Assembly (NCBI GenBank): GCA_900168235.1
Contig: FUZG01000015.1
Span: forward strand, 1 to 64,000
Direction of reading: 5' to 3'
From: Lachnospiraceae bacterium
GTDB lineage: Bacteria; Bacillota; Clostridia; Lachnospirales; Lachnospiraceae
Length of the DNA stretch: 64,000 nt
Part shown: positions 3,268-20,464 of the stretch, one piece after another
Layout of the letters: every line of letters begins with the position of its first letter
Position numbering within the stretch: position 1 is the first letter of the stretch
The notes under the pieces: model-generated
Databases searched by the model: none
Seen by the model: the letters and a program-made list of their open reading frames with translations, nothing else
Told to the model about the DNA's origin: nothing
Program-made: the position numbers and the translations under genes

Positions 3268-3326
3268 TGACAAAAAATATTGTCAATTACCCACTGGCGA
3301 CATATATCGTCACCAGCGGGTAATTG
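3268..3326 (-). terminator. Terminator of the cargo operon
   Basis: CAATTACCC (3284-3292) pairs with GGGTAATTG (3318-3326), with further pairing of CTGGCGAC and GTCACCAG inside. On the minus strand the stem is followed by ACAATATTTTTTG. It lies about 50 bases after the stop codon of the last cargo gene. Confidence 0.7.
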
Positions 3327-3374
3327 TAAGGTGAGGAACCGTCAATAGAACGTAGATACTAGAGACACATTAAG

Positions 3375-4844
3375 TTACCCAACACATTCTTCCAGAATAA
3401 TTTGAATAACTTCTTCAGCTTCCTTCTTCTTCATTCTTTCAAAAACAGCATCAAACACTTTCGCATAAATCATTCTCTGTTCATTAGTAATCTTAGTACT
3501 AATATTTAATGCATTGTATTTCGTGACAGACTTCTGCATATTAGCCAAAATAGAAAGCTTTCCAAATAGATCCATAGAAGCAAGCTGATCCGATTCATCC
3601 ATATCATCATACTGATCTTCGCTTCTTATCTCTTCAAATCGATCTGTAATGTCTGCTTCATTAATATGATCTTTAATATCCGTCTGAACAATCTTCTGTG
3701 AATTCTCATCAAGACTTCTCTTATATGAACGAGCTCTGATTTCTTTTGATATCTCGACTGTCCATTCCTTAAACTGCTCTAATACGCTTAAATAGATATC
3801 ATTCTTCTCAAAATCATCTCTTCGAGAATTAGGAATAATTTTATCACTGCAAATGTTTAATTCACCACAAAGCCAACCGTTGAATCTTTCCTCCTTAAAA
3901 TAACTCCTTAGTGAATTCTGATCCCCAAAAAGAATATTTCCATGACGTACTCTAATTCCTTTAACCTGGTTATCTAAGATCGTTCCAAAATAATTATTTT
4001 CCGAATACCATAGAATTGCACAAACATCACCATTTACGGAGAATGTTCTAAACTTTATATCTTCAATCGGATCCTCAATACGTCGGACTCGATCAGACAA
4101 AATACGGTCAGAATATGGTTTACATATCTTTATAATTTCACCATCATAATCTAGGTATATATTGTATTCTGGAATAACAAGACCATTTACCTTAAGATTT
4201 TCAGTGATCACTGACCCCCAAACAAAACTGCTATCAAACGGAACTGGAAGGTTCTGTTTCATATAATTAATAACTTTGTCTCTGATCAAAAGCCCATCCA
4301 CATTATTGACACTTCTCATATCTACGCGGAAATAATGTGTCTTAGAATCAACATTTTTTTTACTACATGACACCACTTGATCCATCACTTCTGAAATAGA
4401 CTCTTCTCGTCCTTCTTGTGGAAGTAACAGCTTTTGAAGTAATTCACAATCATATCTCACTGTCGTCTCCACGTTCTCACCAAAAGCAGTGGTTGTAAAA
4501 CTAAGGCTCTTACAATACCCTAGTCCTGATAAGCGCCCAATTCCTCTAAATCCCCTTGACTTCTTGTAGTCTTTCTTTGAATTACCTATATCTATTAACG
4601 TACTGAGCGCTTCTTTTGCCAAAATCCCTGTTCCATTATCTTCAATCGAAATGTTATTCTGTGAACTCTGAATCCTTATAATAATCTTTGCATCTTTTCT
4701 ATTTATAAGGTTTTTATGCAAAGCAGTATCTATAGAATCTGCTGCATTTTGTACGTACTCTCGATACAGATCCAATGGTGTTAAATACATTCCACTTGTT
4801 AAAGATTCTAATGTATACTTTCCGACTAACAATTTATGATTCAT
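3375..4844 (-). CDS. GHKL (Hsp90-like) ATPase, cargo copy 1
   Basis: 489 residues. The N-terminal third is a Bergerat-fold ATPase: N-box E29-YVQN33-AAD36, DNGTG at 69-73 and GFRGIG at 98-103, all with key residues intact. The fold is shared by Hsp90, MutL, gyrase B and MORC proteins; the remainder has no domain I can name. The C-terminal part has an acidic stretch near 405-425 and a helical end. It begins 5 bases after the radical SAM stop codon, with no clear Shine-Dalgarno, suggesting coupled translation. A paralogue with the same opening (GKYTLESLTSGMY versus GKFTLESLTTGMY) opens the operon at 17244-18767. A role as ATP-driven clamp or sensor in defence is an inference. Confidence 0.85.
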   Translation of the reverse strand: MNHKLLVGKYTLESLTSGMYLTPLDLYREYVQNAADSIDTALHKNLINRKDAKIIIRIQSSQNNISIEDNGTGILAKEALSTLIDIGNSKKDYKKSRGFRGIGRLSGLGYCKSLSFTTTAFGENVETTVRYDCELLQKLLLPQEGREESISEVMDQVVSCSKKNVDSKTHYFRVDMRSVNNVDGLLIRDKVINYMKQNLPVPFDSSFVWGSVITENLKVNGLVIPEYNIYLDYDGEIIKICKPYSDRILSDRVRRIEDPIEDIKFRTFSVNGDVCAILWYSENNYFGTILDNQVKGIRVRHGNILFGDQNSLRSYFKEERFNGWLCGELNICSDKIIPNSRRDDFEKNDIYLSVLEQFKEWTVEISKEIRARSYKRSLDENSQKIVQTDIKDHINEADITDRFEEIRSEDQYDDMDESDQLASMDLFGKLSILANMQKSVTKYNALNISTKITNEQRMIYAKVFDAVFERMKKKEAEEVIQIILEECVG

Positions 4845-4849
4845 TTTTT

Positions 4850-6859
4850 TTAGAACAGACTCAACTGTTCATAGACCCCCTTTATGCTCTCTTCAATTTC
4901 TCTTAGTATCATTTCATTTCCAGGCTGATCTGCTGCCTTCATAATGAAAATATCTTTCAACTCATCCAATTTTCCGAGGAGTTTTTCTCTCAATTTTTTT
5001 TCGTCAAATGTGCATACAGAATTAATTACCTCATTCTTATCAGCTGGTTCAAAAACCCCCATTGAATCGAACAACGGTAGATAGTTTAATAATGAAAAAT
5101 TAAAACCAATATTCTTTGATCTCGCTGTAGCCTGCAATCTATTATTAAATTGAACATTTTTTGAATCAAACAAATTTCTATTCTTTATGATCTCTTTAAT
5201 ACTCTCTACTCCAAACACGTCAACAAGCACGTTTAATTGCTTCGCTGTAATATTGATGGTTGCTGCATATGTTATGATTCTAGAATATAAAATCGGTAGC
5301 TCTTCCTTTATGAATATTAGGAGCGCTTTCTTTGTGTTCTCATCTGCATTCTCTAATACCCGAATCATACCGGCCTCAGTAAAATACAAAAAATATAGTT
5401 TCTTCATATTCTCATTTGATATTTTGTTAATGAGAACTTCATCAAATCTATTGCATCCTATATATTCCAAAAATTTAGTAGCATCTATCTTCCTATATAG
5501 TTTTCTCCATGTATTAATAAGATGCTGATTTTCATTCCAAATATCATAACGTGCCTTTTCTTCTTTTTCTGATTCTCCCTTACGTTTTACAAAAAAACCT
5601 CTTTTAGAAATAAGACGTTCCGGCATTGCTAACGTTTCAACAAACTCTTTCTCATCTTTTCCAAAATCAGCCTCAAAAAATGATCTTCCCGAAACGCCCT
5701 TTCCTTGTGTCGGAATAAGCATACATTGAAGAGCGCGCAAATACTTTGCGTTCCAATGTTTTCCAATAAATCCTCTACTAAGATTTGAAAGAGGTATATA
5801 CCTCATCGGAAATGAGAAAATGGATATTTTTCTACCTAATCGGGCCGTAAGGTTTTCACTTAATTCCATTGTAATTTTCATACGTTCATACAAGTCTTCT
5901 GGAGTATCTGCGTGATATGTATGACCCTTACCTGTAAAATCTTCACCATTATACAGAAGATAATTTGACATATAGTCCACGCCATTTTCAGCGCATAGTG
6001 TTATGGCCCTTGCATAAGCTTCTTTATCTTCTATATGATCAAATGCTATTCTTGCCGGTTTTATCGCCAATTCTCCAAGTCTCTTTGCTTTCTCTGGAGT
6101 CATTAAAAATGCATCTAATCCCTGATTAAAATCAACATATCGCTGAACAGTTTTTCCCGTCTTTGGATTCTTGAATGATGCACCCTTCCCATATCCAAGG
6201 GCAATTATCTCATCTATAATTTGATCAAACTTCGGTGACCGAAGAACGTTATTATCCATTAATAATAAATCCTTCTTAGGTCCAAATTCTCTATCAATAC
6301 GATGAATATCATCTGTAATTGAAACATATGGCTGATAGCTAGGTTCCAAAGTTTTTACTGCACAAAATGTACAATTCATACCACAGCCACGAGTCATATA
6401 AGTAAAATATGCATCGTGTGCAGGATAGGTACAAACATCCTTAACGTCCTCAAGTATTCCATAATCAAGAGGTAATGTATCAATACACTCATCATGAGGA
6501 AGTCCCAACGTACCTTTATGATTCAATAATCCCGTATTATTAATTATTTCTGGAAAATTATCCCTAATCAGTTCTGGCATGAGTGTTGCAAGAATACCAC
6601 CTGTATATACTTGTCCACCTTCTTTTACAACTCTCAACGCATACTCCAACGCTTCTTTTGTAATATCCCATTCAAAAGTAAATAGTGTGGTTACATATAC
6701 TCTATCCCATTTTTTCTTACTTAATGCATCCGGAAGTTTTCCCTTAGCAAATCTAACGTAGTCTCCCTGCATGTATCGATGAAAATAAGCTATTTTCATT
6801 AGTCCAATTGGTGGATAGGTACTCTTATAATTAGGTTCTATTAATAAAATATCTGACAT
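4850..6859 (-). CDS. Radical SAM protein with B12-binding-like N-terminal domain
   Basis: 669 residues from the ATG at 6859, chosen over an ATG at 6889 because GGAG precedes it by 6 bases. Residues 1-130 resemble the N-terminal domain of B12-binding radical SAM proteins, but I see no DxHxxG cobalamin-binding motif. The 4Fe-4S motif is C159-GMN-C163-TF-C166, followed by the radical SAM barrel (MDNNVL near 201, FNQGLDAF near 244). The last 250 residues are unassigned and helical. The substrate is unknown; the family modifies nucleotides, RNA, peptides and small molecules. Its presence beside a GHKL ATPase and downstream of DrmAB is unusual. A nucleotide or nucleic-acid modification role is only a guess. 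Confidence 0.85.
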   Translation of the reverse strand: MSDILLIEPNYKSTYPPIGLMKIAYFHRYMQGDYVRFAKGKLPDALSKKKWDRVYVTTLFTFEWDITKEALEYALRVVKEGGQVYTGGILATLMPELIRDNFPEIINNTGLLNHKGTLGLPHDECIDTLPLDYGILEDVKDVCTYPAHDAYFTYMTRGCGMNCTFCAVKTLEPSYQPYVSITDDIHRIDREFGPKKDLLLMDNNVLRSPKFDQIIDEIIALGYGKGASFKNPKTGKTVQRYVDFNQGLDAFLMTPEKAKRLGELAIKPARIAFDHIEDKEAYARAITLCAENGVDYMSNYLLYNGEDFTGKGHTYHADTPEDLYERMKITMELSENLTARLGRKISIFSFPMRYIPLSNLSRGFIGKHWNAKYLRALQCMLIPTQGKGVSGRSFFEADFGKDEKEFVETLAMPERLISKRGFFVKRKGESEKEEKARYDIWNENQHLINTWRKLYRKIDATKFLEYIGCNRFDEVLINKISNENMKKLYFLYFTEAGMIRVLENADENTKKALLIFIKEELPILYSRIITYAATINITAKQLNVLVDVFGVESIKEIIKNRNLFDSKNVQFNNRLQATARSKNIGFNFSLLNYLPLFDSMGVFEPADKNEVINSVCTFDEKKLREKLLGKLDELKDIFIMKAADQPGNEMILREIEESIKGVYEQLSLF

Positions 6860-6875
6860 ATAAATCTCCAAAAAA

Positions 6876-6924
6876 ATAAACAGTTCCACATATCACAAAT
6901 CTCACATACATGGAACTGTTTATA
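6876..6924 (-). promoter_or_regulatory. Attenuator-like hairpin in the radical SAM leader
   Basis: A perfect 12-base inverted repeat (TAAACAGTTCCA at 6877-6888, its complement at 6911-6922) followed on the minus strand by a run of T that abuts the ribosome binding site. It looks like an intrinsic terminator 18 bases before the start codon. It would end or attenuate read-through from the NERD-helicase gene and so control the radical SAM and GHKL genes separately. Confidence 0.6.
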
Positions 6925-7309
6925 TTATATATATTTTTTTCGCAAAAGTCGATCGCTGAGTCATAGGTCATTTCTTATATCCACATGTATTTTTTCATAC
7001 AAGTTAGTTCTATAAGAATATATCATCGTTCTTATGATTTCTAACTACCCCCTAAGAGCTTCACGCATACTAAAATTAAATCTCGGTTCTCAGCAACAAT
7101 GATTATATTACAACCTCTGGTCAGCATTCCTTTAACATATTTCGTGAACGCTGTCTGTAAGATATACGAGCATTGTCTCAATTTGACAAAAATTTATCAT
7201 CAACAACCGAAACCTCAAATTTAGACAACCTTTTATAAGATAATTCATAAAGATAGAAGTCAATTGCAAAGTTCTTTTAACATAGTATTTTCTATACGAA
7301 CTTATAAAA
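6925..7309. other. Gap inside the cargo run, possible promoter region
   Basis: About 385 AT-rich bases between the NERD-helicase stop and the hairpin. No reading frame is supported. An ATTATA near 7105 (minus-strand TATAAT) could be a -10 element for the radical SAM gene, but I found no good -35 at the right spacing. Confidence 0.35.
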
Positions 7310-8926
7310 TCAATAGTTTACAACATAAAGATAGTACTTAGCCCTCGTACCAGCTACATATAACCGATTATAATAATCCTTGTTCTTTGTCAAACCATTC
7401 GGCCAATCATTTAAATAAATAACTATACACGCTTCCAACCCCTTGAAATCAGAAACAGTTGATATCTTTACCTCATCTTCTGCTAAGCTGTCTTTGCTCA
7501 ATTTATATCTCCCAAACTTCTGTTCGCTCCATTCACAAAGTCTATTATCATTTACTAAAACTACAACTGAACTTGCAGGAACACTTTCCTCCGTTATCAA
7601 TTGATTTAAAACACTGTTCAAAAAGACTCCAACCTGTTGTGTATTATGATAATCATATATTTCCGGATCACAACCGCATATATCATTTGAAATGATCTGA
7701 TCACCTATCTGTGTATTCCCCTTAATCCAACTGTGTATATTCCTTGTATTTCTGATATTATTCAGCAACAAATATGGTTCCGTATCAATACCAAATCCCT
7801 TTCCAAACCTGCGATTATAAATATTCTGGTTTTCGTCAAAAAATACCCAAAAAATCCCATCTGGCCTTATATACAGATTTAGACTCCTTGCCCAATCTTC
7901 GGATAAATCTTGAGCCTCATCAACCATAATACAATCGTATTTTTTTTTATTTATCCCTGCCAACACATCATAGTACTTGATATCCCCTCTCGCATCTTGA
8001 GGAAGATCTGCCGCATTAATTTTCCCTATTGTTCTTGCAAAAAGTGTTTCTATTGGAACGCAGTCAACAAGCTCATTATTAATCTGCTTTTCAACATATT
8101 GACAAAGCGAACTGCTATAACAGGTATACAAGCACTTCTTTCCACACAAGACTTGTTGCTGAATCTTTTTTATTGCGATCCATGTCTTTCCAGTTCCAGC
8201 CCCTCCGACAATTTGAATTCTGTTGTAATTAGTCAAAATTGAAATTACAGCATCCTGGACAACATTTATTGTTTCAAGCTTACGTTCTGTTATTGGAATC
8301 AACGCACCAGCAGCTACAGAAAGTGCAACCCTTTTGTTTACTAAACCAACAAACTTTGTCGCTTGACTATTAGAGAGAAATGTTCCCTTATTTCGTTTAC
8401 TCCAATAATGGAACAAATCATTGATTCGTTTTTTTAGGTTACCCATATCGCTTAGTTGAATTGTAAGTTCTTTGGGCGCATCATTCTCTAGCGCTACATC
8501 CACATTAAAAAAAGGAAAAGCTACTGCCATTCCATAAGAACCCTGAAACTTACTAAATGTCTCTTTCTTGTAGTAATCAAAGAAATAGTACATGCTTCTA
8601 TCTGCTTGATGATATGGTCCTTTCCCTAAATCGCGACTTTCCTGTTCGCCTTCAGAATTTGTATAATAAAGAATCCAGTGTCTATCATTTACTTCAATTC
8701 TTTTCCCACCTTTTACTTCAATGGTCAAATAGCCAAAATTAGAAGAAAAAATTAAGAAATCGCACTCACTATTTACTCGTTCTCCACGAAAATCTGTCCC
8801 GTACCACTTTACTGAATAAAAAACATGAAATGAATCATCTAACTGCCTTTCCAATTCTTCAAAAAAGACCCTTTCAGATTCTGTCGGATCATAATTACTT
8901 AAATTATGCGGATGCATTATTGCCAT
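7310..8926 (-). CDS. NERD nuclease-domain / superfamily 1 helicase protein
   Basis: 538 residues. The N-terminal NERD domain has a PD-(D/E)xK-type core: E54-CD56-FLIF and then I-E70-V-K72, so the nuclease residues look intact. A superfamily 1 motor follows: Walker A GGAGTGKT at 241-248, DEAQD at 336-340, DENQ near 364, the YVAGTRAK motif VI near 523. It is short for a full UvrD and lacks large insertion domains. GGGAGG stands 8 bases before the ATG, inside the end of the DrmB gene, and the two genes are 2 bases apart. I infer a DNA-cleaving or DNA-processing effector of the DrmAB-type system. Confidence 0.85.
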   Translation of the reverse strand: MAIMHPHNLSNYDPTESERVFFEELERQLDDSFHVFYSVKWYGTDFRGERVNSECDFLIFSSNFGYLTIEVKGGKRIEVNDRHWILYYTNSEGEQESRDLGKGPYHQADRSMYYFFDYYKKETFSKFQGSYGMAVAFPFFNVDVALENDAPKELTIQLSDMGNLKKRINDLFHYWSKRNKGTFLSNSQATKFVGLVNKRVALSVAAGALIPITERKLETINVVQDAVISILTNYNRIQIVGGAGTGKTWIAIKKIQQQVLCGKKCLYTCYSSSLCQYVEKQINNELVDCVPIETLFARTIGKINAADLPQDARGDIKYYDVLAGINKKKYDCIMVDEAQDLSEDWARSLNLYIRPDGIFWVFFDENQNIYNRRFGKGFGIDTEPYLLLNNIRNTRNIHSWIKGNTQIGDQIISNDICGCDPEIYDYHNTQQVGVFLNSVLNQLITEESVPASSVVVLVNDNRLCEWSEQKFGRYKLSKDSLAEDEVKISTVSDFKGLEACIVIYLNDWPNGLTKNKDYYNRLYVAGTRAKYYLYVVNY

Positions 8927-8928
8927 GT

Positions 8929-10842
8929 CTATTCCTCCCAGAACCCCCAGAAACGTTTATCAGCTTCCTTGTCATACTTACCTATCAATAATGTTCTATC
9001 TAAATCATGATTAAAATGCTGGCAAGAAATTTCATTGGTAAATACACATCCGGCACATGCAGCCTCATGCTCCACACATATCGGATCAAAAATACATTCA
9101 CTTGCTACTGTACCTGCTGTATCCAACCATTTATCAAAATACATATCAAATATACTGAATAATGCTCCCATATTAAAACCTTGCGTATTTTGACAATATA
9201 TAAAAGTAGCCGGAATAGATGGAAAGATATACTCCGACAAAGAGTTCTTATCAAGTCCGCAAATTTCAGCAGCAGAGATGATTAGTGTGTGTGATATTGT
9301 GTGCACTAGCCTATAAACGTAATAAGTAACTGGGTCCTCTACTTCATCTAAAAGAGAAAACGGCTCTATTAAAGATGAATTAATATTATTGATAAACCAT
9401 GCTTTAACCTCAGTTTCATCAGTCAAGTCAACCGGAAGCTCACTTTCCTCTATGATTTCGTTCTTTACAAGCCAGTTCAAAATTTTCACTCTATCAACTT
9501 CAAACAAAACCCCCTCTGTTTTAAGCTTCGTTGCATAAACTGTTTTCTTTTCAGGTGATTCATCCGGAAACCCCATCAAAACAACAGGGTTACCCTTTGG
9601 GGCAGACGCATTATCCATAAATTCTCTTGTATAACCATACGAGCATTGAATAAATGGAATCTTGTCACTAGCCTGAATTTTTGATAATCCATAGCGTTCC
9701 GCCAAATCAAAGTATTCGTCAGGATTTGAATGGGTATTTAACTCTCTGGATCTTTCCACTGCATCGGACAGCAATACTACATCTTCACTTTCCTTTACAG
9801 TATTAAACTCCAATGCTGATTCTGCAAATTCTGCAATCCTTTCACTAGATGTAATCAAACCATTTATTTTTTTTACAGCGTTTGAAACGGGATCATTTGA
9901 ATTCATCTTGCACATAGATTCTGCCGCAATTTTTGCCATATCCGGCGGCATATTATTATCGATGAACTGTTTATAAAACATATCATAGTTCATCTTCTGC
10001 AACTCCTGTTGATTCTCCCTTCCAAATTTAACCGTCTTTTTAAAATCGTCATCTGATAAAATTCCAAGATAATTGGCCGTTATGATTGCAGCTCCATCTT
10101 TCTCTTCTGACAAAAAACTGTCCATTTTTTCATCAAGTAGATCTATAACACTCAACGTTTTAACAAAACTTTGTGCGGAATCCAATACGTTATTCGGTGA
10201 TATTCTTTCTCCGCACCAAGGACACTTTCGAAAAATCGGAGTTGTTCTATGGCATACAGAGCACTCATACTTATGGTCTTTAATACGCATTATCAGAGGT
10301 GCACCTTTATGGTTATCACAATCACCAATCGAAACCTCACCTGCCCATCCACATCTGCAATAATATATGTCTCTTAACTGGACAAGATTACCACCACATC
10401 CAGGTTTTGCACATCTCTTATCCATGATGAAAGAATACTGGGATTCTCTTTTAAACCGTCTTATCTGATGACACTTTTCGCAAAAAAACACACTTGGGCT
10501 TATATATCCTGAGATTGCTCTATCCTTTTCACTTATTCTCGGTGTTAAAACCGTATATGTATCTGGTGATATTTCACTAGCAAAGTCCTTAATACATCTT
10601 GTTTCGCCACCTTCTATAAGATTCCCACACTGCTTCTGATAGCTCTTAACAGCATCACTTACTTTCCTGAGCAGCCTTTTCTTGTTTATATCTTCTAATG
10701 GGATACTACTCCACCCATCTACAAAAGCCGTGTATCCTCTTCTATTTGACGAGAAGAAAAAGTCAATCCATCTCTTAGGCACATACTTGTAGAGTGCTTG
10801 AGACGTGCTTCTCATCATTTGATTTTCTTTTAAATCAGCCAT
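8929..10842 (-). CDS. drmB: DrmB-like DUF1998 protein (DISARM core component)
   Basis: 637 residues. Cysteine pairs at 121/124, 144/149, 162/164, 195/198 and 207/210 form several zinc-ribbon-like sites in the N-terminal third. The C-terminal DUF1998 module is clear: RLVHTISHTLIISAAEICG near 511, NTQGFNMGALF near 552, and the cysteine-rich end CIFDPIC...CAGCVF...SCQHFNHDLDRTLL near 583-618. This layout is that of DrmB, which forms a complex with the helicase DrmA in DISARM. The start overlaps the end of drmA, with GAGGT before the ATG. DUF1998 is also found in other helicase-linked systems such as Druantia, so exact class membership is open. Confidence 0.85.
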   Translation of the reverse strand: MADLKENQMMRSTSQALYKYVPKRWIDFFFSSNRRGYTAFVDGWSSIPLEDINKKRLLRKVSDAVKSYQKQCGNLIEGGETRCIKDFASEISPDTYTVLTPRISEKDRAISGYISPSVFFCEKCHQIRRFKRESQYSFIMDKRCAKPGCGGNLVQLRDIYYCRCGWAGEVSIGDCDNHKGAPLIMRIKDHKYECSVCHRTTPIFRKCPWCGERISPNNVLDSAQSFVKTLSVIDLLDEKMDSFLSEEKDGAAIITANYLGILSDDDFKKTVKFGRENQQELQKMNYDMFYKQFIDNNMPPDMAKIAAESMCKMNSNDPVSNAVKKINGLITSSERIAEFAESALEFNTVKESEDVVLLSDAVERSRELNTHSNPDEYFDLAERYGLSKIQASDKIPFIQCSYGYTREFMDNASAPKGNPVVLMGFPDESPEKKTVYATKLKTEGVLFEVDRVKILNWLVKNEIIEESELPVDLTDETEVKAWFINNINSSLIEPFSLLDEVEDPVTYYVYRLVHTISHTLIISAAEICGLDKNSLSEYIFPSIPATFIYCQNTQGFNMGALFSIFDMYFDKWLDTAGTVASECIFDPICVEHEAACAGCVFTNEISCQHFNHDLDRTLLIGKYDKEADKRFWGFWEE

Positions 10843-10843
10843 G

Positions 10844-13800
10844 TCAATTTACCTCAACTATCAAATTTTTTTCCGTATCTCTCAAGCTATTCATAACATG
10901 GAAACCAAGGTTATTCAGACCGCTAGTTATGTATTCTTCTCCAACACTCTTATCAAGAATTCTCCTAAAGACAGTTTCAACAAACTCGTCAATTTTCTTT
11001 TTATATATCTTAGAAATACTCCTAATCTGACCATCTTCCATAATACATCCGTAAATTTCATACATCTGATGTCTTACATCTTCTTTATTTATTTCACTAT
11101 TTTCCACAGCCTTTTTTAACTCTGGCATCATGTATATTTTATGCCCACAAATAGGATAATAAACACTAAGAATTAACCCACAAAATATCCCCGGCATAGT
11201 AACATCAATTGCTTTATTTGCCCATCTGTTTACCGGAACCGGATCAACAAGAATATCCTTATATTCATGGAATTTTTGAAAATACCTTAAATAACTCTGA
11301 TCCGTAGGTCTCGAAGGTCTTATAATATCAACTACAATACCTGGATACTTTCTTCCAGCTCTTGAATATGCCTGTATGTATTCCGCTGTACTTCCCGGCA
11401 TTCCAAAGAAGACAATTTCATTAAAACGATCAGCATCAACTCCATGCGAAATCATGCTTGTAGCCGAAATCATGTTAAATCCAACATCATCTATGATATT
11501 ATCCGCAGTCTCTATTTCTGCTAAAATCTTCCTGACATCTTGGAATGAATCATCACCAGTCATTTTGGCCGCAGAATATGTTCTGACACCCGCATCTCCT
11601 AGTTCAATATTTATAGGATTATTCAATGCACCTACAACATTAGTACTATCTATTTTTACATTGTTGTACTCGATTGACAGCCAGTAATCTTGAATTACCT
11701 TATTTGCTTGATTCAGTTCTATATCTTCAAGACCTGGTATCTCCCTAATCAGTTCATGATTTTCTACATACTTCCAAATCACTTCTCGTAATGCTTTTAG
11801 ACTATACGCAACACCATTGATCATCGCCCTTCCAAACGGTGCATAACCAATAATAATTCTATTTAGGTCATCGTTATCTATATATGAATAAAAATGCTTT
11901 TTCAGATTGATAGATTCGCATGGGAACCTCCTCGCATTCTTTAAAAATAGTTCACTTATCTGCTTTTGGTAATTTGATATTGTTGCTGTTGCACCAATAA
12001 TCTTCATTCCACGTTTAGAAGAAGTATGGTTTCTACAAAAATAATCAATCATCAGTTCATAATGAGAATCATAGGTACCAAGAGACTCCCGTATAAGATG
12101 TAATTCATCCTGGATCATTAGTGTTGGAACAGGATCATACATATCTACTTGCGGGAATACCTCTTCATCACATTCTTTGTACTCTATGCAACCGTCTACA
12201 CCGCAATATCCATGTTTAAGACATTTTCGATTAGTTCCTCTAAACAACTGGGTGAAATTACGATTAAATCCAATTGCAGACATTTTATCTACCGTACTGA
12301 TAATAACTGATGGAAGGTATCGATATATTTCATTATCAACAATATAGATAGGTATAATATTTTCATTACATTTTTTATTGCCACAAACGTGAACAAGCCT
12401 CATATGATCAACATCTGCCATCATATGAAGATCTCCACCACAAAATGGACATTTCTCTACTACTAGGTATTTTCTATCTCTTTCAGTATCTGGCAATGAA
12501 TTTATTTCATCTAACTTGTACTTGTTAAGCTTATTAGGAGTATTGCCTTCTCCACATAAATATCCTAAGCCAAATTCATCAGAATCACACATTCTTGGAT
12601 CTGTCCGCCTTATCAACTCTGCTTGAGCAAGAATATTGCAAACACGAGATGCCTGCTGTGCCGCCAATAACCTCAGAGGATATCTTAGAATCGCTGTCAC
12701 TCCCCTGTTTTTATTTCTAAGTCTATCAAAAAACAGATTGAAAATAACAGTTCCTAAAAATGCTTCCGTTTTACCGCCTCCAGTCGGGAAAAAGATTACA
12801 TCTGCATCGTCAAATGTAGACTTACTCCTAATACTCTCTGGAAGAGCCAATTGTTCTTCGCAAACAGCTATATCCAAAATAACCGAAACAATATAAACTA
12901 TCTGAAACAGTCTCCATCCCCCGTAACTCTTAGGAGAATTAGAAAAGGCCTGATTCATAAACACGAAAGCATCTTTGATAATAGAATAGTCTCTAATTAA
13001 GTCTATCCCTATTTCAAACCGATCAATTTCAAGTTTGAAGGCATCTATTTCATCCCTCATCTGATGTTGTGCACTCTCAGAATATAAAATTCTGCATTCT
13101 TTATACTTATTTTTCCACTCTGATAACTCTTGTTTCATTCCAGAATGTATTACAAGCAATGTCTGAACAGGATCAGAAATCAGATCTGCAAATCTTGCCT
13201 GAATATCATCATTTGTTTTTAAGCGATACTGCTTGAAAAGTGGCACATTAGTAGTAACGATATAGTCCATTGAATCCTTTAATTCAAGGAAATCAATATT
13301 ACAGTTGAATCCCAAAGCTGCCTGTTCTTTGTCGTACTTGTAGTCATCTTTGAAATGTGTCAGCTTAATCGGTACGTACTTTGTTCCTATTAACTTTACC
13401 TTAAGACGTGCATTAAAGATTGTTGATATTTTGATATGATCTTTATATCTTTTTTTCATCAGCTCCGAACCAACTTGTTCAGCCTTATTTATATATTTAA
13501 GACCAATAGCAAGCAGTTCTCCGTTCTGCTTTATATCTGCAGTAACTGCAAGATTCCAATTCGGTAAATTTTTAACCTCTTTGTGTTCTAACTCCAGAAA
13601 GGCCTTCCAACTATCCTCCGTAACAAGATTTGTAAGTGCTAATTTTGATTTAATGTCGTATGCATAATACTGTGGATCCGAAAGAACTACATTCTTTATT
13701 ACATCCTGCACCTTTTCATTGAGAGCCAAGTTTATTGGGTCTAAATCACCCAATACCCCTCTTGCAGTCTCCGTATCATATATTTCCTTTAAAGTGATTT

Positions 13801-14287
13801 TAACCTTGAAATTATGCTTCTCAATAGATACCCTTTTATAGATTTGTAGAAGCGGAATATCATAGCTGTTTGATTTTTTACTATCAATCTCAGCCAATTT
13901 CTGTTTGACATCTACATCATTTACAAATTCCTGAATTGTGGAATATTTTTTTCCAAACAAAGTATTATACTGCCGTACCGCTGCATTGCTCTGCTCTTCA
14001 TATGTGGGATAAACCCTATAAAACCAGTTTCCACAAAGCTCTACTTCCAATGCGGCGTGGTCAAGATCAATTTGGGGAATATTAAAGTTTACCCCTACGC
14101 CGTTAATAACAACCCTAGACGAAATAAAACTGTCCATATTCTCAGATGAAGGAGAAAGCTGTCCAACCACAAACTGGTCCTCTGGTACCTTACCTTCAAT
14201 TCTTGATATACCCTCTCCCGTTAATTTTTCTATAAATTCCTGTGTTAATCTTTCAGCAAATAACCTGTGAATAGTTTGATCATCCAT
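10844..14287 (-). CDS. drmA: DrmA-like superfamily 2 helicase (DISARM core component)
   Basis: 1147 residues. The N-terminal 480 residues have no nameable domain. The motor shows Walker A PTGGGKT at 501-507, cysteine clusters CPFCGG...CGNKKC (613-640) and CLKHGYCGVDGC (689-700) inserted in the first RecA fold, DELH at 727-730, GATAT at 765, ISATSMISHGVD near 940 and the motif VI form QAYSRAGR near 972. The GGGKTEAFLG box and the inserted zinc fingers are typical of DrmA. In DISARM, DrmA with DrmB recognises incoming DNA. It sits 1 base before drmB, with AGGAG before its ATG. Lysine, DEAH-type and arginine residues needed for ATP use are present. Confidence 0.88.
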   Translation of the reverse strand: MDDQTIHRLFAERLTQEFIEKLTGEGISRIEGKVPEDQFVVGQLSPSSENMDSFISSRVVINGVGVNFNIPQIDLDHAALEVELCGNWFYRVYPTYEEQSNAAVRQYNTLFGKKYSTIQEFVNDVDVKQKLAEIDSKKSNSYDIPLLQIYKRVSIEKHNFKVKITLKEIYDTETARGVLGDLDPINLALNEKVQDVIKNVVLSDPQYYAYDIKSKLALTNLVTEDSWKAFLELEHKEVKNLPNWNLAVTADIKQNGELLAIGLKYINKAEQVGSELMKKRYKDHIKISTIFNARLKVKLIGTKYVPIKLTHFKDDYKYDKEQAALGFNCNIDFLELKDSMDYIVTTNVPLFKQYRLKTNDDIQARFADLISDPVQTLLVIHSGMKQELSEWKNKYKECRILYSESAQHQMRDEIDAFKLEIDRFEIGIDLIRDYSIIKDAFVFMNQAFSNSPKSYGGWRLFQIVYIVSVILDIAVCEEQLALPESIRSKSTFDDADVIFFPTGGGKTEAFLGTVIFNLFFDRLRNKNRGVTAILRYPLRLLAAQQASRVCNILAQAELIRRTDPRMCDSDEFGLGYLCGEGNTPNKLNKYKLDEINSLPDTERDRKYLVVEKCPFCGGDLHMMADVDHMRLVHVCGNKKCNENIIPIYIVDNEIYRYLPSVIISTVDKMSAIGFNRNFTQLFRGTNRKCLKHGYCGVDGCIEYKECDEEVFPQVDMYDPVPTLMIQDELHLIRESLGTYDSHYELMIDYFCRNHTSSKRGMKIIGATATISNYQKQISELFLKNARRFPCESINLKKHFYSYIDNDDLNRIIIGYAPFGRAMINGVAYSLKALREVIWKYVENHELIREIPGLEDIELNQANKVIQDYWLSIEYNNVKIDSTNVVGALNNPINIELGDAGVRTYSAAKMTGDDSFQDVRKILAEIETADNIIDDVGFNMISATSMISHGVDADRFNEIVFFGMPGSTAEYIQAYSRAGRKYPGIVVDIIRPSRPTDQSYLRYFQKFHEYKDILVDPVPVNRWANKAIDVTMPGIFCGLILSVYYPICGHKIYMMPELKKAVENSEINKEDVRHQMYEIYGCIMEDGQIRSISKIYKKKIDEFVETVFRRILDKSVGEEYITSGLNNLGFHVMNSLRDTEKNLIVEVN

Positions 14288-14291
14288 ATAA

Positions 14292-15269
14292 TCATTCTCC
14301 TAACATCATCACAACAGTATTGTATTTCAAACCTATCTTGCTATATAACTCTTCTCTCAGAAATCTATAAACATCATCTGGTATAATATCCTTGCTTTCA
14401 TATAACTTATAATTCAACCCAATAAAATCTTTTTGCGACAGAGATCGGATTTGCATATCAAAAATGTAATTGTATGCTTTATCAAATAACTCTTCCTTGA
14501 TCACATTATATAGATCACTTTCTCTGTATTTTTCACCTTCCCTGCATAATAATTCGGCAAGGCATATATACTGATTTAGGCTTTTAATCTTTGTATTATC
14601 AGACCATTTAACCAATTCAAGATACGCTTCATAATCACCCCTATAGTCAGGCTTTTCTCTTGAGAGATCTCTCAAATAATCCTCGCATTCACTCCAATCC
14701 ATCTCGCTGACATCCATCGAAAGGTCAACGCAAACAGCAGGATCCCGTTTTTCCGTTTGCTCATCAATTTCATTTACAACAAATACATGCTTTTTTTCTT
14801 CTGTGAAAGCATATTCGCCACATATTATCAGATTACTATCCCACTTTCCTTCGCCCATTATCCCCTCTGAAACAAGAATACTATTATGACCTATAAACTT
14901 TTCGCGACAATCAATTGAATCACAAATCACTTTTCCCGTTACTTCAATTCTTTCAGCAACTATCTCACGGACTCTTAAGTCATCCGAAAAAAGTGCGTCA
15001 TTTACTTCTAAAGCCCCGAATATATCGCATCTTCCCTGTACATTCATATTATCAGCTTTGCAGTTTCCAAAGCACACTAAACTTCCCATTACTGTAAGTG
15101 AATCAACATCAATACTGCCATATACAATCAAGTCATAATTTGCTTGGAGTTTTCCACTAATATCTGACATAACCTGCGCGCTAACTTCGATAATGGTATT
15201 GTCATCTTCTATATACTCGATTATATTTCTTCCGCCAACTTGCTCACTATTCGTCTCATTGTAACGCAT
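14292..15269 (-). CDS. Bactofilin-like beta-helix protein of unknown role
   Basis: 325 residues from the ATG at 15269, picked because GGGAGG stands 9 bases upstream. An earlier TTG at 15290 overlaps the helicase gene. Residues about 25-150 are successive short beta strands with the spacing of a polymer-forming bactofilin-type helix (ANYDLIVYGSIDVDSLTVMG, then CDIFGALEVNDALF, then IEVTGKVICDSIDCREKF). The C-terminal half is helical and acidic and has no family I know. The fold can form filaments or a scaffold. Its place between the SF1 helicase and DrmA, 4 bases from drmA, makes it part of the operon. A scaffold or sensor role is inference. Confidence 0.7.
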   Translation of the reverse strand: MRYNETNSEQVGGRNIIEYIEDDNTIIEVSAQVMSDISGKLQANYDLIVYGSIDVDSLTVMGSLVCFGNCKADNMNVQGRCDIFGALEVNDALFSDDLRVREIVAERIEVTGKVICDSIDCREKFIGHNSILVSEGIMGEGKWDSNLIICGEYAFTEEKKHVFVVNEIDEQTEKRDPAVCVDLSMDVSEMDWSECEDYLRDLSREKPDYRGDYEAYLELVKWSDNTKIKSLNQYICLAELLCREGEKYRESDLYNVIKEELFDKAYNYIFDMQIRSLSQKDFIGLNYKLYESKDIIPDDVYRFLREELYSKIGLKYNTVVMMLGE

Positions 15270-15273
15270 AGCT

Positions 15274-17241
15274 CTAATCCCTCCCGACAAAAGCTTCCTT
15301 CAACAGATTTACATACACAGATTGTTCTGATGTTTCTGCTGACACAATTCTTAAAATATCCTTCGCCCTCGCACAAGACATATACAAAATGTTAATATTC
15401 TTGTTAAAAGCATTGACAATTTCCTCTTTGTCATAATATGTTTTCAGCATATTTAAATCCTTGGTGTGATCATGAAGCCCTAATGGAAGCAAACCACATA
15501 TAATAACCGCTCTGAAATCCAATCCTAAAGAGGACTCCATTGTCACAATAGGCACTCCATCTATATCCGAATATGAAACACTGTACTCACTGCCACTGCT
15601 GTTAAGCAAAGAGTAAGGAATATTGGCAGTATTCAGATAATCCTTCAATTTGTCAATCGGTGCATAATGCTTTTCTTCTCTATTCTTTACATATCTATAT
15701 CCACGGTTGTAACAAATAACCGCTATAGAATCATATGGAATATGGTAATTATCGTGTATGTCAATTATCTGATTCAGAACAGTTATTGCCTCGGCATCAG
15801 AATCATTATATGCTTGGTTAACTTCAATAAACTGTAAATCAAGCCCTTCCCTTATGCTTTTTCCGCGTAAAAATATATCTGCATCCTGATTAACTGGTAT
15901 GTTAAGCCTCTCTGCAAATTTTAAGGCATGATCAGTAAACCGCCTAATAAAACTATTTATTTGTATCGAGTTTCTATAATTTATTTCAATCGGAAAACTT
16001 TTTCCTCTAAAGTTCGGGTAATCGTCACCATGCCCCTGCCATGGTGCCCTTCCACTTTTTATCGATTTCTTTACACTTTGGGATTTGTCTCCACAAATAA
16101 CAAAAAAGTGTTCATCTGTTTTTTTATTTTCAACTAACTGGTAGCATGATTTATACCATTCAGGTTCAAACATTTGAACCTCATCTATGAAAACACCGTA
16201 ATATCGCGACTTTATCCTTCCAATATTGACATTCTGTATAAAAGCATCTCTTACTTTCGTATAATCTCCGCCCAAAGCATTCGGAACCTTCAGCCCATTC
16301 TCCTGTAAAAGCTTTACACAAAGCCTATCATAGGTTAAACACTCAACATTATTAGTCGAAAATCCAGCAGAATCTATTAACCACCTAAAATAACTAACAA
16401 GATTTCTGTTATATCCCGTAATTAAAAAACGTTTATCCGGATTTAATCCTGCAACCTTAAAACATTTTGATATCAGGATCACGCTTTTTCCGCTGCCGGC
16501 ACAAGCAACTATAAGTTGATCACCCTTCTTTATTTTATTAATGTAATCTATCTGTGTTTCATCTAGCATATATGCAACAGCAGCTCTCTCTGCGACACCC
16601 AGCTTGCTATCAGAAATATACTGGATTTTCCTTTTATCCATCTTTTTTTCATCTACTGCTGCTTTTATTTGTGGGATAGTATACTCTGGAGCAACCCTGT
16701 TGATAATATCCGGTACAAGGTCATTACCTATTACGTTTTTCGCATCCGTCCCAAAACATATATCACTCAAGAGTTGCCTGCTCTTCCGTACTCGTTTCCA
16801 GAAATCATTAAATAGACATGACTCTTCCACAAAATTCTCAAGCATTTCCATTCCTGGAGTTGATGAAAAATCCGGTTTGTCTGCTTCAGGAAAGAAATTA
16901 ACAATTGAGAATGGAAATACAATTTTTCCGTTTTTCACTAAATTTCTTTGATGCGAAAAACGGTCTGTTAGTATTTCCATTTCATCTTTATTTGCAACCA
17001 TTCTTGAAAATAGCGCAGTAATAAGTGCCGCACTGTCAACAACAGCCGGCTTTACGTTAATCATAATGACTCCCTTAGGCTCAATCAAAATATGTACTAC
17101 TCCATCCATTGTCTTTGTCGGATTGCAGCACAACAAAAAAATCGCATCATCATCGCGATATATGCTCTTCAGTAGTGCCATTAACTGTTTGTCATATTTT
17201 TCTATGCTAAGTTCGTCATACTTCTGTGGAAGAATTTTCAT
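15274..17241 (-). CDS. Superfamily 1 (UvrD/Rep-like) helicase
   Basis: 655 residues. Walker A is ACAGSGKS at 247-254, motif II DEVQ at 353-356, motif III GDKSQS near 384, motif IV INYRNS near 420, and motif VI YMSCARAKD near 620. The N-terminal 240 residues include KGVIMINVKP near 56-65, which resembles the IEVK core of NERD domains but with the acidic residue replaced by Asn, so it may be a decayed nuclease domain. It begins 2 bases after the GHKL ATPase gene and its stop is 4 bases before the next ATG. I read it as a translocase partner of the DrmAB module. Confidence 0.85.
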   Translation of the reverse strand: MKILPQKYDELSIEKYDKQLMALLKSIYRDDDAIFLLCCNPTKTMDGVVHILIEPKGVIMINVKPAVVDSAALITALFSRMVANKDEMEILTDRFSHQRNLVKNGKIVFPFSIVNFFPEADKPDFSSTPGMEMLENFVEESCLFNDFWKRVRKSRQLLSDICFGTDAKNVIGNDLVPDIINRVAPEYTIPQIKAAVDEKKMDKRKIQYISDSKLGVAERAAVAYMLDETQIDYINKIKKGDQLIVACAGSGKSVILISKCFKVAGLNPDKRFLITGYNRNLVSYFRWLIDSAGFSTNNVECLTYDRLCVKLLQENGLKVPNALGGDYTKVRDAFIQNVNIGRIKSRYYGVFIDEVQMFEPEWYKSCYQLVENKKTDEHFFVICGDKSQSVKKSIKSGRAPWQGHGDDYPNFRGKSFPIEINYRNSIQINSFIRRFTDHALKFAERLNIPVNQDADIFLRGKSIREGLDLQFIEVNQAYNDSDAEAITVLNQIIDIHDNYHIPYDSIAVICYNRGYRYVKNREEKHYAPIDKLKDYLNTANIPYSLLNSSGSEYSVSYSDIDGVPIVTMESSLGLDFRAVIICGLLPLGLHDHTKDLNMLKTYYDKEEIVNAFNKNINILYMSCARAKDILRIVSAETSEQSVYVNLLKEAFVGRD

Positions 17242-17243
17242 AA

Positions 17244-18767
17244 TTATTGCCTTTTTTTACCAGTTATATTATCCATTATCCCGTTATAAATAATCTCTAC
17301 CATCTCTCTACTTAAGTATTCAGATAAGGATTCAAATACTATCTTTAAAATCTTCTTCTGCTTTTTATCTAATTCGGCTGAAATCTCGTTGTTAATCTTA
17401 TAATTTGTTGTGCTGCCAACTTTTTCCTGTACATCTGCAAGCTTCTCAGCTATTTCCTTTCTTTTCTCGGCCACCTGAGGATTCTTCTGCGAGACACGTG
17501 CCAATTTCTTTTCAGCCTCTTTTAATTCATCCGTCAACTGCTCTTTATCCTTTTGCGAATAGAGTCCTTCATCAACAAGTTTATCAACTTTATCTGATGT
17601 TTTATCTATCTCTTTGAGTAATCTAACATCTGGATTATTTCTATTCTTAGATGCCTCACGTATTTCTTTAATGATTACGTCTCCAACTCTTTCCTGAAGC
17701 TCATTAATCATCTTGTAATATACATCGTTCTGTTCAAAGTCATCTCGTCGTGCGTTAGGAATAAGACCTTTCGTATTTACAAAAATCTCACCTTGAACCC
17801 AACCATTAAATCTATGTTCTTTGAACATAACATCCATAGTTCTTCTATCCCCAATAAGGATATTGCCTAGGCGCATTCTGATTCCCAATAGTTCATCATC
17901 AGAAATAGTACCATTCCAATTACATCTGCCATACCATCCAAGTAAAGAATCTTCACCGTCCAAGTCAATCGAAAATGTTACAACTTCATCAATAGTATCA
18001 TCCATCCTTTTATTTCTATCTGATTTAAAATGATACTTGTTAGGCTTAAAAACTTGCTCCAAATGATCCTCGTCATATCCCACATAAACATTGAACTCTG
18101 TAAGTTTATAACCTTTACCATCCAAAAAACGCCTTATCTCTGGAGCTACCAAGAATTGTCTTGTGTTATATGGGACAGGCGCGACTTCAGACAAATACTG
18201 GCGAATTACATCAAGTTTCAAAAGTTCCGAAGACATATCAACAGCACTCATTTCAACTCTGAAATAATGTTCATATGCTTCTTCTTGAAAAGACTCTGTA
18301 TGCGTAATGCGCTGTATTACACTTTGAAGATCTAACTCCTCATCATGATCAGGACTCAGCAATTCCCTCAATTGTTTGCAATCAAATGATATTTTCGTTG
18401 CTACCGATTCTCCATAAAAAGATGTTATGAACACTAATTTTTCACAATAAGAAAGACCACCTAGACGACCTATTCCTCGAAAACCTCTGTTATTTTCTTG
18501 TCTCTTTGTAGATTTTCCGATACTAAGTAATACGCTTTCTGCATTTTTACTTGATACCCCCCTGCCGTTATCTTCTATGGCGATAGTGCCATTTTCCGAA
18601 TCAATCAAAACATTAATAAAAGCTTCTTTCTCAGAAATCGTTTTTTCTGATATTGCAGCCTCAATAGAATCTACGGCGTTTTGAATATACTCCCTATATA
18701 CTATCCTTGGGTCAGAATACATACCCGTTGTAAGTGACTCTAATGTAAATTTACCAACTTCAACCAT
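17244..18767 (-). CDS. GHKL (Hsp90-like) ATPase with C-terminal coiled coil, cargo copy 2
   Basis: 507 residues from the ATG at 18767, with AAAGGGAG 9 bases upstream. The Bergerat-fold motifs are E26-YIQN30-AVDS, DNGRG at about 66-70 and GFRGIG near 95. It is collinear with the 3375-4844 protein, sharing the opening GKFTLESLTTGMY and the middle segment RMRLGNILIGDRRT (RVRHGNILFGDQNS in the other). Residues about 370-470 form a charged coiled coil (KDKEQLTDELKEAEKKLARV), longer than in the paralogue. It is the first large gene of the operon. The two copies may form a heterodimer or act at different steps; this is inference. Confidence 0.85.
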   Translation of the reverse strand: MVEVGKFTLESLTTGMYSDPRIVYREYIQNAVDSIEAAISEKTISEKEAFINVLIDSENGTIAIEDNGRGVSSKNAESVLLSIGKSTKRQENNRGFRGIGRLGGLSYCEKLVFITSFYGESVATKISFDCKQLRELLSPDHDEELDLQSVIQRITHTESFQEEAYEHYFRVEMSAVDMSSELLKLDVIRQYLSEVAPVPYNTRQFLVAPEIRRFLDGKGYKLTEFNVYVGYDEDHLEQVFKPNKYHFKSDRNKRMDDTIDEVVTFSIDLDGEDSLLGWYGRCNWNGTISDDELLGIRMRLGNILIGDRRTMDVMFKEHRFNGWVQGEIFVNTKGLIPNARRDDFEQNDVYYKMINELQERVGDVIIKEIREASKNRNNPDVRLLKEIDKTSDKVDKLVDEGLYSQKDKEQLTDELKEAEKKLARVSQKNPQVAEKRKEIAEKLADVQEKVGSTTNYKINNEISAELDKKQKKILKIVFESLSEYLSREMVEIIYNGIMDNITGKKRQ

Positions 18768-18817
18768 GAGCAATCACTCCCTTTTATATTCCTTCTTCAG
18801 CACCTAGTTCACTAACA

Positions 18818-19018
18818 TCAACTATTGATTGCACTTTTTCCACTGTTTACCCATTCATCTATCTCTGAGCATTTAAATTTCCAAAAGCGCCCTATTTTAT
18901 GAGCAGGAATTTCATTATTTGGATTCCTGATCCAACTACGCAGAGTCACCGGTTTGATCCCCAGATATTCTGCCGCATCATCCAAACTGATGTATCTTTC
19001 CGTCTTTAATGTTTCCAT
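18818..19018 (-). CDS. Small HTH protein (excisionase/MerR-type helix-turn-helix)
   Basis: 66 residues: YISLDDAAEYLGIKPVTLRSW is a HTH_17-type winged helix, followed by the usual IPAHKIGRFWKFKCSEIDEWV wing and basic turn. GAGGT stands 6 bases before the ATG. It lies 50 bases upstream of the GHKL gene on the same strand and appears to lead the cargo operon. This family includes excisionases of integrative elements and transcription regulators. Since no other excisionase lies near integrase 1, both roles are possible: control of the operon, or directing excision. Confidence 0.8.
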   Translation of the reverse strand: METLKTERYISLDDAAEYLGIKPVTLRSWIRNPNNEIPAHKIGRFWKFKCSEIDEWVNSGKSAINS

Positions 19019-19065
19019 AGATTTACCTCGCCATCTAAACTACAGCTACACTACATCTATAACCA

Positions 19066-19155
19066 CATTTATCATCAGCATAATGATAGCATTTATCATT
19101 AGTGATTATAATCCAGTTTATTGTTATTTGTTGACATTTTGACCAACAAGTTGAC
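19066..19155 (-). promoter_or_regulatory. Control region of the cargo operon
   Basis: A minus-strand TATAAT lies at 19105-19110, with a poor -35. Around it are a direct repeat CATTTATCAT (19066-19075 and 19090-19099, 24 bases apart) and three TTGAC motifs at 19131, 19139 and 19151 on the plus strand. The layout fits a repressed promoter whose operators flank the -10, with the small HTH protein as the obvious candidate binder. Confidence 0.5.
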
Positions 19156-19359
19156 CTGATATTTTAAAACTTCACGCAAAGTTCAAGACAAATTTTATTA
19201 CCACATTTTAATTTTCTCCCATTAAGTTGTTACTTATCACAGATCCGAACACTCTGTGTTATATAGATATCCAAATTCCCGTTCTTGATTATCGCATCAG
19301 ACCGATTCAGTTACGTAATTCATACTACGTCAGACTTTCCTCTGTCCCATATTTTAAAC
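19156..19359. other. Intergenic region without recognised gene
   Basis: Rest of the divergent interval between the HTH gene and the small plus-strand gene. AT-rich; no supported reading frame. Confidence 0.4.
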
Positions 19360-19388
19360 TTTACCCAAACAAATTTTCTGTATATAAT
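19360..19388 (+). promoter_or_regulatory. Promoter of the small plus-strand gene
   Basis: TTTACC at 19360-19365, a 17-base spacer, and a consensus TATAAT at 19383-19388. Transcription would begin near 19395, which rules out the ATG at 19394 as start and favours 19427. Confidence 0.65.
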
Positions 19389-20441: not shown

Positions 20442-20464
20442 TTTTAGTCACCTCCTTTCCAGAA

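Follow-up and report, generated by a model that had tools for sequence, protein, structure and literature searches.

A stretch of 64,000 nucleotides from a Lachnospiraceae bacterium (contig FUZG01000015.1; hereafter the window) carries an operon of nine genes that includes DrmA and DrmB, two proteins of the DISARM system. All nine open reading frames (ORFs) lie on the minus strand between positions 3375 and 19018 (Table 1). They encode, from first gene to last, a helix-turn-helix (HTH) regulator, a GHKL ATPase (GHKL1), a superfamily 1 (SF1) helicase, a beta-solenoid protein, DrmA, DrmB, a NERD nuclease fused to an SF1 helicase (NERD-SF1), a radical SAM enzyme and a second GHKL ATPase (GHKL2). 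Families were assigned with Pfam, PADLOC (PDLC models) and NCBIfam profiles, each with its own cut-offs, and the matches bear out the gene families named in an initial annotation, with the refinements given below. From these comparisons, an anti-phage role is predicted for the operon.

Table 1. Features of the operon and of its carrier element, with positions in the window and protein lengths in amino acids (aa)
Feature	Position	Strand	Length (aa)	Evidence
HTH_17/excisionase-type small regulator, first gene	18818..19018	-	66	HTH_17 8.6e-15; NCBIfam excise 6e-11
GHKL1, Hsp90-like GHKL ATPase; likely start ATG 18767	17244..18773	-	509	HATPase_c_3 2.7e-11
SF1 (UvrD/GajB-like) helicase, putative NERD-like N-terminus without ExK residues	15274..17241	-	655	UvrD 3.1e-5; PDLC01087 'NERD+UvrD' 2.2e-26
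Beta-solenoid (bactofilin-like) protein, helical C-terminus	14292..15290	-	332	Pfam Bactofilin E 0.048, under cut-off
DrmA, YprA-type superfamily 2 (SF2) helicase	10844..14287	-	1147	PDLC02576 3.5e-168
DrmB, DUF1998-type C-terminus	8929..10842	-	637	PDLC02582 6.9e-48
NERD nuclease fused to SF1 helicase, at DrmC's place	7310..8926	-	538	NERD 4.8e-7 and UvrD_C_2; PDLC03813 RTasNERD-Hel 8.6e-62
NERD/radical SAM intergenic gap, 420 bp	6890..7309	.		Gap table over nine loci
Radical SAM enzyme, N-terminal Rossmann-like domain; likely start ATG 6859	4850..6889	-	679	Radical_SAM 1.3e-5, under cut-off
GHKL2, second Hsp90-like GHKL ATPase, pairs with radical SAM gene	3375..4844	-	489	HATPase_c_3 3.6e-10
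Carrier element, ~33 kb, in 3' end of aminoacyl-tRNA synthetase gene	843..35731	.		Intact gene copy 33803-35731, displaced 3' end 843-1352
Tn916-type integrase beside operon, part of carrier	1480..2718	-		Phage_integrase 5.3e-27, Integrase_DNA 4.2e-20

The genes were initially described as lying, nearly all, 1 to 5 bases apart, which overstates how closely they are packed: six of the eight junctions are tight (-17 to 5 bp), while the HTH and GHKL1 ORF ends are separated by 44 bp and the NERD-SF1 and radical SAM genes by 420 bp, or 450 bp if the likelier ATG of the radical SAM gene is taken as its start. Promoter-like matches within the 420 bp are not above those in shuffled sequence. Nine loci of this type have both genes; the window alone shows the gap, the longest ORFs of the other eight abutting or overlapping. 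A Pfam scan of 20 window ORFs returns no methyltransferase, and the matches of the operon include no phospholipase D (PLD) family.

The two Drm proteins are recognized by their PADLOC models, including the DUF1998 end of DrmB that had been seen by eye, and fall under the cut-offs of their NCBIfam models (DrmA against DrmAS, 354 bits with a cut-off of 950; DrmB, 80.5 bits with a cut-off of 240). The seven zinc residues of DrmA, C613, C616, C635, C640, C689, H692 and C706, do not vary between the window protein and three relatives aligned with it. In NERD-SF1, the NERD catalytic residues E18, D56, E70 and K72 are the same in all ten proteins aligned, in line with the proposal that a NERD nuclease is used instead of PLD. 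The separate SF1 helicase conserves its Walker residues but not the catalytic residues of its N-terminus, which looks like a NERD-like domain without the ExK residues. The assignment of the two GHKL ATPases, which resemble one another, stands and can be refined to Hsp90-like: a profile of nine proteins is nearest to Hsp90 (HtpG 1.7e-9), GHKL1 matches the HSP90 family PRK14083 at 7.5e-17, under its cut-off, and the ATP-site residues E28, N32, D68, G70, G72, G100 and G102 are invariant in nine aligned proteins. The HTH regulator also gives a MADS1-like match (1.5e-13, under the cut-off of that model); homologues occupy the same position in loci L059 and L064, and ORF sequences read by eye place a Cro-type HTH there in L062 and L066.

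For the beta-solenoid protein, the initial term bactofilin-like is a weak one, the Bactofilin score being 14.3 bits against a cut-off of 27.9. The N-terminal half of its structural model is beta-strand and the C-terminus helical (predicted local distance difference test, pLDDT, 64.1 overall and 77-89 over residues 21-100). The model has no PDB match at E<=1e-3, identity to homologues in nine other loci is 20-28%, and nothing beyond the solenoid-like model backs a bactofilin filament. The homologues in L062, L063 and L070 (N-terminally) and L097 (internally) have an extra small domain that, read by eye, resembles the Tudor-like C-terminal domain of UvrD helicases.

The radical SAM model is more confident (pLDDT 88.3); a Rossmann-like region at the N-terminus precedes the radical SAM core, and the C-terminus is helical. 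The family has no PDB match by sequence; by fold, its nearest solved structures are OxsB (2.9e-8), an MtaB-type model, TsrM, MiaB, AprD4 and RimO (2.9e-8 to 1.5e-5), placing it nearest to cobalamin-type and MiaB/RimO-type enzymes. Several enzymes of these types use nucleotides or tRNA as substrates. Cysteines C169, C173 and C176 are invariant in 17 aligned proteins, and no other cysteine is. The PADLOC library contains viperin models; the protein matches 0 PADLOC families at E<=0.05 and the viperin fold gives E 0.083, so viperin is rejected.

To establish how widely this gene set is conserved, we collected loci and typed them with profiles built from the collected loci themselves; a scan of the genome collection gave at least 565 confirmed relatives, of which the best 80 were kept. 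The complete order GHKL1-SF1-beta-solenoid-DrmA-DrmB-NERD-radical SAM-GHKL2 is present in seven loci (the window, L059, L062, L063, L064, L070 and L097), with DrmA proteins 43-45% identical to that of the window. The initial annotation had held that a set without recurrence in unrelated genomes would not be a system of its own; the order does recur in unrelated genomes, with proteins 22-57% identical to those of the window. L059, a contig from a viral collection, matches the window operon gene for gene, all nine being present in order with BLAST identities of 32-50%. Three further members are incomplete: L065 has other short ORFs after the radical SAM gene in place of GHKL2, in L066 GHKL2 is cut after a few dozen residues, and in L071 the contig ends, leaving a GHKL1 fragment. 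The hosts, according to their records, are Gemmiger, Clostridia, Firmicutes, Oscillospiraceae and metagenome-assembled genomes of Phascolarctobacterium, Desulfovibrio and Bacteroidetes, for which binning may err. Because the DrmA tree splits the type into the window, an L062/L063/L070 group, L097 and an L059 group, the seven complete loci represent about four deep lineages, not seven independent cases. Judged by these comparisons, the eight genes very probably form a conserved unit, and the architecture is well supported.

Searches with single genes gave little beyond these loci. The beta-solenoid search of 200 family genomes found only the window's own protein and that of plasmids found none; DrmB had no match among viral contigs and DrmA none among phages, nor did a two-row DrmA alignment, which yields poor patterns, against viral contigs. 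Plasmids gave 11 records with the SF1 helicase, the two best loci being without DrmA, and 50 with DrmB; four of the latter loci were read, and all four have DrmA-DrmB-PLD plus a DrmE-type gene (in one, the DrmE match is weak at 39 bits). Genome G153, of the same family as the window, keeps the gene order SF1-DrmA-DrmB-NERD, its proteins being 29-35% identical; the 36 kb examined there gave no match to GHKL, beta-solenoid or radical SAM.

To relate these loci to DISARM, a DrmA tree was built from 58 proteins chosen from the collected loci, with no ARMADA or TALON protein included. The ten loci of the window type form one clade (Shimodaira-Hasegawa-like approximate likelihood ratio test, SH-aLRT, 99). 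A sister clade (support 100) comprises 17 loci with SF1-DrmA-DrmB-NERD, some cut by contig ends, and none has a GHKL, beta-solenoid or radical SAM match. The two types and the intermediates L067 and L069, which are counted in neither, form one clade (100) beside archaeal DISARM class 2 DrmA; class 2 has some long branches, and the deeper order of the tree is unsure. The short or cut DrmA proteins of L068, L085, L095 and L106 were excluded from the tree and from the 17 sister loci; L095 and L106 carry an N6/N4 methyltransferase.

The two types differ in their methyltransferases. A match within 10 kb of DrmA, or up to the contig end, is found in 0/10 loci of the window type versus 13/17 of the sister type (Fisher p 1.5e-4, a value that overstates independence because each type is one clade), while a DrmC-type PLD at E<1e-10 is found in none of either (0/10 and 0/17). 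By these profiles, the reported lack of drmC and methyltransferase genes in the operon holds for the ten window-type loci. Directly after NERD, the radical SAM gene stands in all nine window-type loci with context, whereas 8 of 14 sister loci have a D12-type methyltransferase there, implying a swap in place; the other six have something else directly 3' of NERD. Since the sister type shares the SF1-DrmA-DrmB-NERD core and mostly has an adenine-type methyltransferase nearby, the distinctive feature of the window type, as read from gene content, is the exchange of a methyltransferase for a radical SAM-GHKL module. This suggests a form of self/foreign discrimination that does not depend on methylation.

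Several other loci show related arrangements. L067 (Clostridium ultunense) has SF1-DrmA-DrmB-NERD and a short radical SAM gene with no GHKL match, a possible early stage of the swap. L018, with DrmE-DrmA-DrmB, a C5 methyltransferase and a NERD-helicase at the DrmC position, is a form that bridges class 2 and the NERD types. L046-L047, L048 and L049 belong to a different DrmA-DrmB lineage: in L046-L047, DrmAB lies beside a sigma-70-like protein matching MzaA, an N6/N4 methyltransferase and a HerA-type gene, and in L049 it adjoins a type I methyltransferase. L053, L055 and L056 have DrmA (with DrmB in L053 and L055) and an Hsp70-like ATPase (Pfam HSP70 in L053, by eye in the others); the L053 operon also includes a UvrD-type helicase, NERD-SF1 and a C5 methyltransferase.

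The radical SAM-GHKL pair also occurs apart from DrmAB. Among 83 plasmid and viral loci, 21 have a radical SAM match above 150 bits, and a GHKL gene lies within 200 bp in 17 of these (these include L143, which duplicates the L059 contig). On alphaproteobacterial plasmids, all 12 radical SAM records, some of them duplicates of one plasmid, fall within the 13 plasmid records with GHKL. The partners on plasmids and viruses are DndB-like and PIN genes, or ParB_N-like and SNF2 genes, the SNF2 proteins resembling ZorD/DpdE; in the window's phylum they are 385-aa and 565-aa (mad8-like) proteins, or PbeA/PbeC. The radical SAM family is present in 17 other genomes among 397 of the phylum and 396 of the family, and the window type is rare among them: the 15 loci examined, none of which adjoins DrmAB, divide into 12 with the 565-aa partner and 3 Pbe-type loci. 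No methyltransferase is matched within 10 kb in 17 further viral and plasmid loci, nor in the 15 genome stretches.

In L243-L254, genes for the 385-aa protein, the 565-aa mad8-like protein, the GHKL ATPase and the radical SAM enzyme form a compact operon that looks like a separate defense system; both partners are present in 10 of the 15 genome loci. The partner of 562-565 aa, taken by eye for HerA-like, has no Pfam match and a PADLOC match to mad8 (6.2e-12), and is left unnamed here. In L240, L241 and L242, PbeA/PbeC-type genes are followed by the radical SAM gene, with GHKL in two of the three and a DpdB/DndB-like gene in L240; PbeA and PbeC are matched in L240 and PbeC in L241, while L242 is assigned by likeness of gene length and sequence start. 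No DndA, DndC or DndE match occurs among the ORFs tested in these three loci, L240 starting at a contig end. The radical SAM gene hence stands at the expected place of a modification gene in two different restriction modules. According to PMC6459918, archaeal PbeABCD acts only with DndCDEA phosphorothioation, a phosphorothioated virus escapes, and 165 of 553 PbeAC are counted without a nearby modification component.

Phylogenies of the individual genes suggest that the window's own radical SAM-GHKL2 pair was exchanged as a unit. Each of the two proteins pairs in its tree with the counterpart from L142, a ParB/SNF2 locus (support 100/99 and 98/93), within the DrmAB-locus clade, whereas GHKL1 groups with L062/L063/L070 (99/97). 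It is this discordance, together with the 420-bp gap peculiar to the window, that suggests the exchange; the gap is perhaps the junction of the exchanged module.

Taking these results together, we tentatively propose, at a little short of an even chance, that the operon encodes an anti-phage system that is mobile and descends from DISARM class 2, in which NERD would substitute for DrmC and self-marking by the radical SAM and Hsp90-like proteins for methylation. As in DISARM, DrmAB would load on foreign DNA that has single-stranded ends; the known complex is autoinhibited, is opened by 5'-overhang DNA and senses base methylation (PMC9142583). The two SF1 proteins would aid its translocation, the SF1 helicase, upstream of DrmA, taking the place of class 2 DrmE, and the NERD domain would degrade the foreign DNA. 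NERD-SF1, directly after DrmB, stands at the position of DrmC in DISARM, and its assignment to the nuclease role of DrmC is likely. The beta-solenoid protein could be a scaffold that assembles the complex with GHKL1, itself an ATP-driven clamp or chaperone on the effector side. GHKL2 would remodel or load the radical SAM enzyme, which may mark host DNA or another self ligand with a modification unlike that of an ordinary methyltransferase, and the mark would keep DrmAB off self DNA. We place this self-marking role between doubtful and somewhat less than even. The complete order in seven loci, the DrmA clade at SH-aLRT 99, the tight junctions, the methyltransferase counts, the positional swap after NERD and the conserved NERD site speak for the proposal. 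So do the occurrence of the pair beside PbeA/PbeC, DndB/DpdB-like and ParB/SNF2 genes without a methyltransferase match and the likeness of the radical SAM model to enzyme types of which several work on nucleotides or tRNA.

Several observations pull the other way. The pair is not specific to the DrmAB system, as no genome locus of the 15 has DrmAB and the 12 with the 565-aa partner, the commonest context found, have no known modification link and would not be expected to hold a modification gene. GHKL2 may be dispensable, given that L065 and L066 lack it or a complete copy and that L067 and L242 have the radical SAM gene without GHKL. A Pbe neighbor alone does not prove a protective mark, because dnd gene deletion is non-toxic in the archaeal Pbe system (PMC6459918). 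Plain methylthiotransferase chemistry is rejected, since the three motif cysteines are the only invariant ones. A single event may account for the methyltransferase difference; contig ends restrict the view in several loci of both types; and the methyltransferase profiles came from few seeds in the same loci and were applied near DrmA, not to the rest of the genomes. Finally, the structure of DNA ends is enough for known DrmAB to discriminate (PMC9142583).

This last point also underlies a different role for the pair, which we consider unlikely: it would be a sensor or effector, making a toxic nucleotide analogue in the manner of viperin or altering phage nucleic acid or protein once infection has begun, while DrmAB, autoinhibited until 5' overhangs activate it (PMC9142583), discriminates by DNA ends. 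Its association with several different motors is what an effector module would show, but the profile and fold comparisons with viperin described above do not favor it, and in 8 of 14 sister loci the position of the radical SAM gene is taken by a methyltransferase. Quite improbable is a self mark of ordinary methylation set in trans, its methyltransferase being encoded at another site of the host or element, with radical SAM-GHKL an independent neighboring cassette. Whereas the occurrence of the pair without DrmAB, the window's 420-bp gap and the differing tree history of the 3' module would fit such independence, the eight other loci with both have abutting or overlapping ORFs for NERD and radical SAM, and the radical SAM gene directly follows NERD in 9/9 loci of this DrmA clade with context. 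There is little likelihood, too, that discrimination is of the DISARM type by DNA structure without any mark, the pair helping assembly or repair; DISARM does restrict phages without methylation sites (PMC9142583), yet the mutual replacement of methyltransferase and radical SAM would be left unexplained. Very improbable is a role outside defense, as a module that serves integrative elements in replication, repair or stability. Although the carrier has two integrases, RepA_N, a relaxase and a coupling protein, DrmAB and NERD-SF1 strongly match defense profiles. Of the ten flanking genes scanned around other copies, none encodes a methyltransferase, and L059 contributes an ABC-three-component gene, L064 one of Shedu type and L070 an Mrr enzyme.

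The carrier itself is delimited by two copies of the synthetase 3' end that lie a constant 32,960 bp apart and share an identical 27-bp stretch at 852 and 33812; the displaced piece has 84% protein identity over 159 aa. By our reading of the sequence, the target gene encodes a class II lysyl-type aminoacyl-tRNA synthetase. A second Tn916-type integrase (20465-21703) is 83.5% identical to the first and on the same strand, which perhaps reflects nested or accreted elements, and RepA_N, the coupling protein and a Mob relaxase are encoded near it. A DrmB search of the window's own genome finds a single copy, that of the window. Outside the element, a SAM riboswitch is found at 47228-47337 on the minus strand (60.5 bits).

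These data define a class derived from DISARM that has eight conserved core genes and in whose operon no methyltransferase was seen, next to a sister class that mostly has one; with two such classes, the step from methylation to another self-recognition becomes directly comparable. The radical SAM-Hsp90-like pair, which loci with Pbe, DndB/DpdB-like or SNF2 genes also have, offers a testable candidate for a self mark or an antiviral chemistry of a new kind. More speculatively, and we hold this to be doubtful, the pair may be a portable self-marking cassette that makes a DNA modification of a new kind, standing in for methyltransferases in DISARM-like systems and for Dnd genes in Pbe-like ones. 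If so, restriction would have a third epigenetic chemistry for marking self DNA, in addition to methylation/base hypermodification and phosphorothioation, and some of the PbeAC loci that PMC6459918 counts as 'solitary' could be explained.

A literature search, partial in coverage and not extending to supplements, found no description of this gene set, and comparison with named systems gives likenesses that are each incomplete. DndCDEA-PbeABCD (PMC6459918) is related through PbeA/PbeC, which adjoin radical SAM-GHKL in L240 (PbeC alone in L241), but its mark is a phosphorothioate made by Dnd genes, and the window operon has no Pbe match. The restriction operons of MORC/paraMORC systems (PMC2292703) also bring together GHKL ATPases, SF2 helicases and nucleases. 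They differ in that the word 'radical' is absent from the available part of PMC2292703, and the window GHKL proteins are nearest to Hsp90 among the families compared; in the available parts of PMC2292703 and PMC8011034, radical SAM is not among the companions of GHKL/paraMORC proteins in restriction operons.

ARMADA, BRIGADE and TALON (PMC12458937) have a YprA-family helicase in common with the window, and TALON a NERD nuclease as well; ARMADA, however, has BrxHII-like and PglX-like genes, and TALON has TPR-CSD and TBP genes. By the definition in that paper, the window operon is not ARMADA: its DrmA and DrmB are separate genes, no methyltransferase is matched, and the BrxH matches of DrmA are weak (0.015). 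Nor is it TALON, for although NERD is present, the Pfam matches of the operon include no TPR, cold-shock or TBP family, and its DrmA nests with DISARM class 2 in the present tree, which has no ARMADA or TALON protein.

The closest likenesses are to DISARM and to the sister type. The sister type (e.g., L014, L076 and L105) shares SF1-DrmA-DrmB-NERD in the same order and differs in its D12 or N6/N4 methyltransferase and in having no GHKL, beta-solenoid or radical SAM match. With DISARM class 2 (DrmE-DrmA-DrmB-DrmC and a methyltransferase), the window operon shares DrmA, DrmB and their order, and archaeal class 2 DrmA proteins are the nearest tree neighbors outside the two NERD types. Ordinary DISARM is nonetheless rejected: beyond DrmA and DrmB, the operon has neither DrmC, nor a methyltransferase, nor DrmD or DrmE (the DrmE profile has no match in the ten window-type loci, and the DrmD profile only a weak one, to NERD-SF1, at 0.008). 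Instead, it has SF1, NERD-SF1, two Hsp90-like ATPases, the beta-solenoid protein and the radical SAM enzyme. The proposal of a distinct DrmAB-based set is therefore upheld as to its partners, which fit none of the systems compared, but not as to isolation from DISARM, as its DrmA lies beside class 2 and it has a sister type. In PMC12458937, whose main text does not use the words GHKL, Hsp90, bactofilin or radical SAM, the DISARM-like clade holds many uncharacterized classes, and the window set may be one of these.

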